Origin: a bacterium | GTDB lineage: Bacteria; Patescibacteriota; Saccharimonadia; Saccharimonadales; UBA4665 | Assembly: GCA_021783725.1 (NCBI GenBank) | Contig: JAJXTN010000003.1 | Coordinates: 1-64,000, forward strand | Length of the DNA: 64,000 bases | Direction of reading: 5' to 3' | Shown: positions 39,788 through 60,687 of the stretch, in pieces | Position numbering within the stretch: the first letter of the stretch is position 1 | Layout of the letters: every line of letters begins with the position of its first letter | Notes under the pieces: model-generated | Told to the model about the DNA's origin: nothing | Database searches by the model: none | Seen by the model: the letters and a program-made list of their open reading frames with translations, nothing else | Made by a program: the position numbers and the translations under genes

Positions 39788-39936
39788 GTCATCCCAGGCT
39801 CGACCTGGGATCCAATCAGTAGTGATTTCCATAATCACAAACTACATTCAAGATTAGATTCCAGATCAAGTCTGGAATGACGGGACAGTCTGGAATGACG
39901 GGACAGTCTGGAATGACAACGGGCGTCTGGAATGAC
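39788..39936. repeat. Paired-hairpin element, copy 2, with laddered end repeats
   Basis: A 94-bp full copy (39788-39881): left hairpin ATCCCAGG-CTCGA-CCTGGGAT, 40-nt middle with AACTACAT, right hairpin ATTCCAGA-TCAAG-TCTGGAAT, ends GTCAT and ATGAC. Two exact 18-nt repeats of GGGACAGTCTGGAATGAC follow (39882-39899, 39900-39917) and then a variant (39918-39936). Confidence 0.88.
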
Positions 39937-45187: not shown

Positions 45188-46510
45188 ATGAGCGGAAATT
45201 CCGATTTACTCGACCAGGCTAAAGCCGTTCTCGACATGAACGATCGTGGCCATTATACTCAGCCAGCTCACGGCCTATATCCACATCAGTGGCTATGGGA
45301 CAGCTGTTTTGTCGCCATTGGTTTGCGACATTTGGATATCGAACGAGCTAAAGCCGAATTACTTAGTCTATTGCGCGGCCAATGGTCCAACGGGATGTTC
45401 CCGAACATTATTTTTCGCGACGATCCTCAATATCGAGCCGACCGCAATGTTTGGCGCACTTGGGTCAATCCCTACGCTCCAGCTGATGTAATGACTACCG
45501 GCATCACTCAGCCGCCAGTATTCGCTGAAGCGGTCGTCCAAGTTGGCGCCAAAATGGCCTGGCCAGAAAGACGCTTATGGTATCGTTTGATGTATCCGAA
45601 AATATTAGCTTATCACCAATGGCTATACCAGGATCGTGACCCACACAAAGAAGGTTTAGTCCTACAAATACACCCCTGGGAAACTGGCCTAGACAATACT
45701 CCGCCGTGGATGAGCGAAATGCACGAGCACCAATTACCTTTATGGATTAGAATTATCGAGAAGACGCATTTAAACAGCGTGATTAATTTATTTCGCCGTG
45801 ATACACGTTCGGTTCCGATCGATCAACGATTTTCGACGATTGAAGCTCTAGCCTTATTTGATATGCAACGCCGTTTGCGCCGCAAAGCTTATAATATCAA
45901 TAAAATCCTTGATCATTCACTGTTTGCCATTGAGGATTTGGCATTTAATAGTATGTTTATTCGGGCCAACAGTCACTTGCGCGACATTGCAAAAAGCTTG
46001 CGCGAAGATTTGCCCGATGATCTAGAAACGATGATGACCAAAACTGAGAAAACTTTTGAAGAACTTTGGGACCAATATTCGGGCCAGTACTATTCGCGTG
46101 ATTTCATCACACATCGGCTACTCAAAACTCCCAGTATCGCCACTCTTTTGCCATTGTATGCCGGTTCTATCAGTCAGGAACGCGCCGATCAACTGGTTAA
46201 TATGCTCGAGAACGACCATGTTTTCGGACCAGCATATCCAGTGCCCAGCGTACCGCTTGATTCATTCTGGTTTCAACCCAAGCTATATTGGCAAGGTCCG
46301 TCATGGGTCAATATGAACTGGTTAATTATTGACGGTCTGAAACGTTATGGTTTCGATGACCACGCCAAAGCCTTGACTGAATCTACTCTAGAGATGGTTG
46401 CCGAAGGTGGTTGTTTTGAGTACTTCGACCCCTTGACTGGCGAACCGGCTGGCGCCGCCAACTTTTCATGGACGGCCGCCCTAACTATCGACCTGCTTAA
46501 ATCAAAATAG
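45188..46510 (+). CDS. GH63-like glycoside hydrolase (glucosylglycerate/mannosylglycerate hydrolase type)
   Basis: About 440 residues with an (alpha/alpha)6-barrel sequence pattern: LYPHQWLWDSCFVAIGLRHL with the Asp found in this clan, SNGMFPNIIFRDD, then WQGPSWVNMNWLIIDGLKRY and EYFDPLTGEPAGAANFSWTA near the C-terminus. These match GH63-type enzymes and mannosyl/glucosylglycerate hydrolases; the exact substrate is not certain. No signal peptide, so probably an intracellular enzyme using a compatible solute or scavenged oligosaccharide. Start ATG 45188 is 7 nt after TATACT. Confidence 0.82.
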   Translation: MSGNSDLLDQAKAVLDMNDRGHYTQPAHGLYPHQWLWDSCFVAIGLRHLDIERAKAELLSLLRGQWSNGMFPNIIFRDDPQYRADRNVWRTWVNPYAPADVMTTGITQPPVFAEAVVQVGAKMAWPERRLWYRLMYPKILAYHQWLYQDRDPHKEGLVLQIHPWETGLDNTPPWMSEMHEHQLPLWIRIIEKTHLNSVINLFRRDTRSVPIDQRFSTIEALALFDMQRRLRRKAYNINKILDHSLFAIEDLAFNSMFIRANSHLRDIAKSLREDLPDDLETMMTKTEKTFEELWDQYSGQYYSRDFITHRLLKTPSIATLLPLYAGSISQERADQLVNMLENDHVFGPAYPVPSVPLDSFWFQPKLYWQGPSWVNMNWLIIDGLKRYGFDDHAKALTESTLEMVAEGGCFEYFDPLTGEPAGAANFSWTAALTIDLLKSK

Positions 46511-46535
46511 ATTCCTCCACTGAGGACGGAATGAC
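46510..46535. repeat. Right-end hairpin of the GIY-YIG repeat family
   Basis: GATTCCTCCACTGAGG... ending CGGAATGAC directly at the stop of the glycosidase gene; same layout as the right end at 48695-48720 (GATCCCTCCACTACGG...CGGGATGAC). No matching left end is seen nearby. Confidence 0.65.
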
Positions 46536-48347: not shown

Positions 48348-48641
48348 CTATGTCATCTCGAGCGAAGTCGAGAGATTCTTTAGACCTGGGTTTAAGCTCA
48401 GTATAAGAACGTCCTTCTTGACTCGGCTCCAACGTTTAAGCTGTTTTTCGCGATTGATTGCTTCGATTATCGAATTGGTATCTTCAAAATAAATCAACTC
48501 TGTGCATAGATAACGATGCGTGAAACCTGGAATCAACAATGAATGATGTTCCTGAACGCGACGTTCTAAATTGTTCGTTACTCCAATGTAAAGCACCGAT
48601 CTACTGATGTTGCTCATAATATATACGAAGTAGGTTTTCAC
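48348..48641 (-). CDS. GIY-YIG single-domain nuclease
   Basis: A 97-residue URI-type GIY-YIG protein: YFVYIMSNISRSVLYIGVTN contains the two half-motifs (VYI and YIG), LERRVQEH the catalytic Arg, and IEAINREKQLKRW the conserved metal-binding Glu with the REKQLKxW end typical of these small proteins. The last codons (LSTSLEMT) and the stop are supplied by a palindromic repeat (48352-48378), and a partner repeat lies upstream (48695-48720), so the gene is bracketed by GTCAT...ATGAC ends. Likely the enzyme of a small mobile element. Confidence 0.92.
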   Translation of the reverse strand: MKTYFVYIMSNISRSVLYIGVTNNLERRVQEHHSLLIPGFTHRYLCTELIYFEDTNSIIEAINREKQLKRWSRVKKDVLILSLNPGLKNLSTSLEMT

Positions 48642-48720
48642 AATCTATATATTAGTTGATAGGTATTAACTAATAATTGAATCTTGAATATATAGATCCC
48701 TCCACTACGGTCGGGATGAC
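48352..48720. mobile_element. Putative GIY-YIG-carrying palindromic element
   Basis: 369 bp. Left end 48352-48378: GTCATCTCGAGCGAAG then TCGAGAGATTC (stem TCTCGA/TCGAGA). Right end 48695-48720: GATCCCTCCACTACGG then TCGGGATGAC (stem ATCCC/GGGAT). The outermost GTCAT and ATGAC are inverted repeats. The only gene inside is the GIY-YIG nuclease. A gene-less version with the same two ends is at 52289-52349. Mobility is inferred, not shown. Confidence 0.6.
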
Positions 48721-48780
48721 ATTGAGGCACGGTCGGGATGACATTGAGGCACGGTCGGGATGACATTGAGGCATGGTCGG
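48707..48780. repeat. Three-and-a-half 22-nt tandem repeats
   Basis: The 22-nt unit ACGGTCGGGATGACATTGAG+GC is repeated exactly three times (48707, 48729, 48751) and then decays. It looks like duplication of the right end of the adjacent GIY-YIG element. No coding frame here is credible. Confidence 0.85.
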
Positions 48781-48934
48781 GCATGACAGGCGATACGTTG
48801 GCAGGGATAACATGTGACTTGGAAGATTCAATCCTAAACACTGTCAGGACGGCGAAAGTATAAATATCGGCAGGCATATATTACGTATCGCCAAACTATT
48901 CACGGTAGTGGATAACCCTGTATAATTGATGGGC

Positions 48935-52288: not shown

Positions 52289-52349
52289 GTCATCTCGAGC
52301 GTAGTCGAAAGTCTGTTTGAATAGATCCCTCCACTGCGGTCGGGATGAG
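52289..52349. mobile_element. Gene-less derivative of the GIY-YIG element
   Basis: 61 bp with left end GTCATCTCGAGCGTAGTCGA and right end GATCCCTCCACTGCGG...CGGGATGAG, matching the two ends of the 48352-48720 element with about one mismatch on the left and about three on the right, and only about 8 nt between. Looks like an internal deletion (MITE-like). Confidence 0.6.
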
Positions 52350-53809: not shown

Positions 53810-53901
53810 GTCATCCCAGGCTTGACCTGGGATCCAATCAGTCATCGACTTCAGCGCTCTAACTACATAAAGACTAGATTCCAGATCGAGTCTGGAATGA
53901 C
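53810..53901. repeat. Paired-hairpin element, copy 3
   Basis: 92-bp copy: GTCATCCCAGG-CTTGA-CCTGGGATCC at the left, AACTACATAAAGACTAGATT before the right hairpin ATTCCAGA-TCGAG-TCTGGAATGAC. Isolated copy between two minus-strand genes. Confidence 0.88.
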
Positions 53902-58262: not shown

Positions 58263-58353
58263 GTCATTCCAGGCTTGATCTGGAATCTAATATTATGTAG
58301 CTGGAGCGCCAGACGCCATAACCGATTGGATCCCAGGTCGAGCCTGGGATGAC
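58263..58353. repeat. Paired-hairpin element, copy 4 (opposite orientation)
   Basis: 91 bp, GTCATTCCAGG-CTTGA-TCTGGAAT at the left and ATCCCAGG-TCGAG-CCTGGGATGAC at the right, i.e. inverted relative to copies 2 and 3. Confidence 0.88.
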
Positions 58354-60416: not shown

Positions 60417-60565
60417 GTCATCCCAGGCTTGACCTGGGATCCAATCGGTTGTGGCGCTCTGCGCTCTAAACTACATAAGATTAGATCCAGATCAGGTCTG
60501 GAATGACAAGGCGAGTGATTAGATTCCAGATCAAGTCTGGAATGACAACAGGCGCCTGGAATGAC
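60417..60565. repeat. Paired-hairpin element, copy 7, plus half-copies
   Basis: 91-bp copy (60417-60507) followed by the same AAGGCGAGTGATTAG plus right hairpin unit (60508-60546) and an end unit (60547-60565). The repeated 39-nt unit in copies 6 and 7 shows tandem amplification of right ends. Confidence 0.87.
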
Positions 60566-60598: not shown

Positions 60599-60687
60599 GT
60601 CATCCCAGGCTCGACCTGGGATCTAATCAGAAGTGTTTCACCGCGTATAGCTACATTAGATTAGATTCCAGCTTTCGCTGGAATGAC
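60599..60687. repeat. Paired-hairpin element, copy 8, with altered right loop
   Basis: 89 bp; left hairpin ATCCCAGG-CTCGA-CCTGGGAT, right hairpin ATTCCAGC-TTTC-GCTGGAATGAC. The right stem has changed on both sides (AGA/TCT to AGC/GCT), a compensated change that keeps pairing. Confidence 0.87.

Follow-up and report, generated by a model that had tools for sequence, protein, structure and literature searches.

The 64,000-nucleotide stretch of DNA analyzed here (the window) is likely to carry a minimal autonomous mobile element, in which two inverted GTC-hairpin ends that differ slightly enclose a single-domain GIY-YIG nuclease gene; neither biochemistry nor an observed transposition stands behind this reading. 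Comparison among genomes shows that orthologous sites either carry the complete unit or lack it entirely, that homology stops at its ends and that ends and nuclease co-segregate. As part of the same whole-element reading, gene-less copies of both ends, about 60-170 bp in length, are likely its non-autonomous offspring. A bolder reading, which we favor by a narrow margin, is that this is a new class of DNA transposable element, found in many phyla, with a stand-alone GIY-YIG nuclease as its only mobility protein, and that many abundant GTC-hairpin repeats, including neisserial dRS3/NIME, derive from it. Phyla with the element include Proteobacteria, Bacteroidota, Cyanobacteria, Chloroflexi, Planctomycetes and Patescibacteria, among others.

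It is the enzyme that defines a class of transposons, and to our knowledge there is no DNA element whose only protein is a stand-alone GIY-YIG nuclease. The open-access literature searched, which did not include preprints, yielded no publication that connects GIY-YIG with REP-like repeats, and a 2006 survey of GIY-YIG does not mention palindromes. If true, the reading would name a mobilizing enzyme for some of the commonest bacterial intergenic palindromes, so far catalogued as repeats of unknown origin, would open repeat spread to direct tests that use a 97-aa protein and a 25-nt hairpin, and would imply at least two origins of the REPIN/RAYT arrangement, with unrelated enzymes.

The element and its copies in the source genome

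The whole element, running from A end through gene to B end, spans 48352..48720 on the minus strand (369 bp). Its nuclease gene (48348..48641, minus strand; 97 aa, GTG start, PF01541) is the only gene in the element, from which both a DDE transposase and a Y1 protein are absent. The A end, GTCATCCCGACCGTAGTGGAGGGATC (48695..48720, minus strand), is located upstream, on the 5' side of the gene, and the B end, GTCATCTCGAGCGAAGTCGAGAGATT (48352..48377, plus strand), is located on the 3' side, where it overlaps the last codons. These ends are inverted and 81% complementary over 27 nt, and neither was matched in 100 shuffles of the window.

An initial annotation, made from sequence alone, had described a GIY-YIG gene bracketed by inverted palindromic ends, which held, and had called these two different palindromes, which is corrected here, as A and B are two variants of one GTC-hairpin repeat (a pyrimidine, GTC, a hairpin with AT at its start and AT at its end, then usually C). 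It had also claimed that the left palindrome supplies the last codons and the stop of the gene. The C-terminal LSTSLEMT is indeed encoded by the left hairpin, but the TAG stop lies just beyond the GTCAT boundary and not in the hairpin; in the second genomic copy of the gene, a TGA stop is supplied by the hairpin. The claim that the same pair of ends occurs without the gene at 52289..52349 (61 bp; B end, then inverted A end) held with one outermost base changed, the right one reading CTCAT for GTCAT, and the claimed lone right end at 46510..46535 (minus strand) was confirmed as a diverged A end with 5 mismatches. The further claim that gene-less, MITE-like offspring exist is supported by the source genome (G000; 843 kb, rebuilt from stretches), where 32 A/B ends were found, compared to 0 in a Markov random genome. 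All 11 convergent pairs of less than 500 bp join A to B; two of these, of 369 and 383 bp, bear the gene and read A-gene-B, and the other nine are gene-less (61-88 bp). The second gene copy, on contig C3, is embedded in an array of A/B pairs and encodes a protein of the same subfamily that is 74% identical to that of the window over 93 residues.

A larger paired-hairpin family, GTCATTCCAGACTTGATCTGGAATC with GTCATCCCAGGCTTGACCTGGGATC, comprises 45 hairpins in the source genome and is found in the window at 39788-39881, 53810-53901, 58263-58353, 60417-60546 and 60599-60687. That the window gene drives this family in trans, as had been suggested, is not supported. No cognate GIY-YIG gene for the family was seen in the source genome; the hairpins of the larger GTCATTCCAGAC family are different, and in other genomes each nuclease subfamily goes together with ends of its own. 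GIY-YIG genes bracketed by related GTCATCCCAGCGAAAGCTGGGAC ends are present in genome G084 (L073, L077). Other small GIY-YIG genes of the source genome, on contigs C19 and C17 (L001, L002), adjoin different palindromic repeats of the TCCTACTTCGCCAAGGCTTCGTAGGA type, and one of these two genes is broken by TGA stops.

Directly outside the A end of the window lies a ladder of truncated A ends (GTCATCCCGACC plus 10 nt; 48721..48788, minus strand). Such ladders directly outside complete ends were listed in 43 cases, a few of which are one place that was seen in two loci, compared to 0 for the reversed motif, and they occur in Saccharibacteria, Planktothrix and Proteobacteria (e.g., L063 1398-1490, L167 2698-2745 and 3339-3385, and L138). 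Ladder units are 18-27 bp long and consist of 10-14 nt of end and about 7-13 nt of filler. Repeated cutting followed by fill-in could possibly have left these ladders, which is offered only as a lead; truncation near the hairpin apex in 15/21 cases is uninformative because the selection window was 9-17 nt.

Association of the ends with the nuclease gene

Ends were evaluated at 80 loci from GTDB genomes, which are best matches rather than a random sample and some of which are mutually related; 75 of these, from many phyla, had sufficient flank for end tests. Strict GTCAT hairpins were found on both sides of the gene at 33/75 loci (44%), compared to 0.19% of random intervals and to 7/798 control ORFs taken from the same loci, with another GIY-YIG gene among these seven. 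A motif-free test, in which the two 250-bp flanks were compared in inverted orientation (similarity score ≥30), identified inverted ends at 64/75 loci and at 26/779 control ORFs. Loci missed by the strict motif often carried variants such as GTCGTCCC or TCGTGTCCC, and about 8-15% of family members were without clear ends. The base before GTCAT was a pyrimidine in all 69 bracketing ends, and short convergent hairpin pairs numbered 62 across the 80 loci, compared to 8-31 for the other orientations. Among relatives in the source family, nearly every well-preserved gene copy has inverted palindromes nearby, the sequence of which varies between genomes. No such palindromic ends were found at eight more distant small GIY-YIG genes of the same clade.

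Hairpins that flank a short gene can act as terminators, and the locus could therefore be an ordinary gene with terminator-like flanking hairpins and no mobility. This explanation is all but excluded, as the control genes are without such hairpins and as it leaves the A/B asymmetry, the gene-less pairs, the empty sites and the homology boundaries unexplained; terminators or local context as the origin of the pattern were ruled out by the ORF controls.

The ends are also matched to the nuclease they bracket. Left and right ends resemble each other within a locus beyond their resemblance to ends of other loci (0/20000 permutations), and end similarity rises with nuclease similarity (Mantel r 0.40, 0/5000). 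Within one Bradyrhizobium genome, GIY-YIG paralogs have differing ends, and the same subfamily elsewhere has the same ends, which argues against a host effect. In the taxonomic family of the source genome, the nuclease gene is sporadic (7/93 genomes); its seven carriers contain 1, 1, 5, 14, 26, 54 and 90 GTCAT hairpins (mean 27), compared to a mean of 0.49 and a maximum of 5 in the 86 genomes without the gene (p=5e-6). In the two carriers with a single hairpin, the nuclease gene is interrupted by a stop codon.

An alternative explanation is that the hairpin pairs are moved by a RAYT or an unknown transposase and that the GIY-YIG gene is a passenger. RAYT systems are known movers of REPINs (PMC3116915), and the source genome has three Y1_Tnp (RAYT-like) genes (C11:33989, C12:35836 and C17:32137; L162-L164). 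However, each of these is bracketed by its own distinct palindrome, none of which is GTCAT, so that the genome hosts two unrelated enzyme-palindrome systems. Moreover, hairpin numbers track GIY-YIG rather than Y1_Tnp. Genomes with Y1_Tnp only were not significantly enriched in hairpins (p = 0.08), whereas genome G084, with 90 hairpins and five GIY-YIG matches, has no Y1_Tnp, and neither have three further carriers (G094, G099 and G100). As the ends co-vary with GIY-YIG subfamily as well, the passenger explanation is regarded as very unlikely, and a RAYT as the mover is rejected in view of palindrome identity and of the co-occurrence of hairpins with GIY-YIG.

Empty sites, boundaries and turnover

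Further evidence that the element moves as a unit comes from orthologous sites. In three close relatives within Bosea, glcD and glcE overlap (GCGGCCTGATGCTC), and four other genomes carry a complete 416-bp insertion at this site, with a TGA-containing pentamer on both sides. The ruvA-ruvB junction of Sphingobium is compact in most genomes compared and holds the element (about +440 bp) in three. In Azospirillum lipoferum the element is found between sufB and sufC, where the gap in relatives is 130 bp or less, and in Shinella PSBB067 an element of another subfamily has entered this gap independently. The hairpin pair is absent too from the empty Bosea and Sphingobium sites, indicating that gene and ends arrived together. 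At filled sites, the ends are separated from the host genes by about 5-20 additional bases, and because of these extra bases no exact target-site duplication could be established; a duplication of 5-6 bp is suggested at Bosea glcD-glcE only and is not uniform. The boundaries are also apparent within a single genome of the source family, in which an alignment of two dispersed copies covers 412 bp at 82%, with homology starting exactly at TGTCAT and stopping at ATGACA.

The initial annotation had proposed a search for empty orthologous sites and a comparison of the ends of small GIY-YIG genes with those of control genes; the first were found in Bosea, Sphingobium and Azospirillum, and the second came out in favor of enrichment for this GIY-YIG family. 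Neither outcome that was held to refute the reading, namely orthologous loci that always contain the gene with diverged flanks or palindromes equally common beside all genes, was met.

Turnover is seen in the dnaN-recF gap of Bradyrhizobium, which in some species holds the full element and in others short derivatives, remnants or different elements, and where the gene copy appears long-lived and vertically inherited. In 27 genomes, this gap contains a gene for DUF559 (PF04480, a Vsr-like endonuclease) flanked by CCCTCTCCCCTTGTGGGAGAGGG hairpins (L210, L214-L217, L223, L224 and others). DUF559 with its hairpins is possibly a third type of enzyme-palindrome element and, if this case holds, the REPIN/RAYT arrangement may have had three origins. 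In the same gap, GTAGGGTGGGCAAAGC...GCGTGCCCACC palindromes with a RAYT-like foot are inserted in apparent remains of GIY-YIG elements (L221, L222, L228, L235).

Composites, in which complete hairpin pairs lie on both sides of a GIY-YIG gene (L170 2886-3394; L301), were also observed; these are inserted as one unit at sufB-sufC and glcD-glcE and have the structure REPIN-gene-REPIN rather than end-gene-end. At glcD-glcE such a composite, different from and larger than the 416-bp insertion, occupies the site in a further genome. In Flavivirga, three near-identical copies of the GIY-YIG gene stand in tandem at a spacing of about 505 bp (L195, L208).

It could be argued that a homing endonuclease invaded pre-existing hairpin pairs that have a separate history. 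In favor of this view, the gene is found inside a pair, pairs with and without the gene alternate at Bradyrhizobium dnaN-recF, and GIY-YIG is a classic homing fold. Against it, the empty Bosea and Sphingobium sites are without any pair, gene-less hairpins are nearly absent where a genome lacks the gene, and the nuclease has no DNA-binding extension. Invasion by a homing endonuclease is thus considered unlikely, and a mobile element comprising gene and ends is preferred.

The nuclease, its putative action and known systems

The window protein has a full GIY-YIG domain (Pfam PF01541, E 1.3e-14) and no other. Its catalytic residues are conserved: among 21 family members, Y7, Y18, G20, H32 and E65 are invariant and R28 is nearly so. 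The predicted fold (pLDDT 93) lacks a separate DNA-binding domain, and the solved structure nearest to it is the UPF0213 protein 1zg2, followed by the structure-specific Slx1. By model prediction only, without biochemistry, a Slx1-like fold would fit an enzyme of branched or hairpin DNA. The window protein had no match in NCBIfam, where the sole match of family members was TIGR01453, a group I intron endonuclease model, in 11/21; in addition, PADLOC gave no match, tblastn gave no match in phages to the query used, and the hairpins matched no family in Rfam.

A host or domesticated nuclease might process cruciforms or hairpins, so that the repeats persist thereby and spread by other means. The nuclease gene at Bradyrhizobium dnaN-recF is under strong purifying selection (median dN/dS about 0.06), and this selection, together with long retention at that site and a fold near the structure-specific Slx1 nucleases, speaks for such a role. 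On the other hand, the gene is not only sporadic (7/93) but also multi-copy (up to 16 matches per genome, in Flavivirga) and occasionally broken, and its flanking ends are those of the repeats. We therefore consider domestication very unlikely and retain the mobile element reading.

For this element, it is inferred, without binding data, that the nuclease would recognize its own hairpins, either extruded or on single-stranded DNA and, without cleavage data, that it would cut at or near the hairpin feet, where GTCAT follows a pyrimidine. GIY-YIG enzymes hydrolyze DNA and do not join it; for this reason host repair is assumed to finish insertion, and host replication and repair would probably complete it at the new site, mostly between genes. 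The scheme would work like RAYT/REPIN with an unrelated enzyme. The earlier proposal of an autonomous element with MITE-like offspring, in which GIY-YIG takes the role of RAYT, is supported by comparison, while the DNA transactions assigned to GIY-YIG remain an inference.

The element resembles REP/REPIN-RAYT systems (PMC3116915) in having short palindromes in inverted pairs between genes with many gene-less copies, one dedicated enzyme gene flanked by cognate palindromes, and distinct enzyme-palindrome pairs within one genome. It differs from them in its enzyme, which is GIY-YIG (PF01541) and not HUH/Y1 (PF01797), in its gene, which is often multi-copy and inside the pair, and in its strict ends, which have a YGTC-AT foot; the foot of RAYT/REPIN hairpins is a tetranucleotide of the GTAG/GGAG type. 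Hairpins are shared with IS200/IS605, but the element is without Y1 TnpA, and unlike IS/MITE systems of the DDE type it is without a DDE transposase. With GIY-YIG homing endonucleases of the I-TevI and I-BmoI type, the element shares a GIY-YIG catalytic domain tied to selfish spread; in contrast to these, it is free-standing, has no intron or intein, lacks NUMOD and any other DNA-binding extension, carries hairpin ends of its own and inserts at non-homologous intergenic sites. Penelope-like retroelements are also mobile elements that use GIY-YIG for target cleavage (PMC1564403), whereas the present element has no reverse transcriptase, has DNA hairpin ends and is mostly under 550 bp. The nearest solved structures by sequence and fold belong to UPF0213 (YhbQ/YazA; PDB 1zg2, 1ywl), but the nuclease of the element forms a separate family.

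The neisserial dRS3/NIME repeats have been described as repeats and as target sites of phage Nf1, with no mobilizing enzyme named in the sections bearing on it (PMC3898611). The ends of the window element do not themselves fit the dRS3 pattern, ATTCCC(N8)GGGAAT (PMC3898611), but this is the pattern formed by the hairpin of GTC-ATTCCCGCGCAGGCGGGAAT-C, and in N. gonorrhoeae a homologous GIY-YIG gene (L169) sits inside a dRS3-type array, where it is flanked by the same hairpin.
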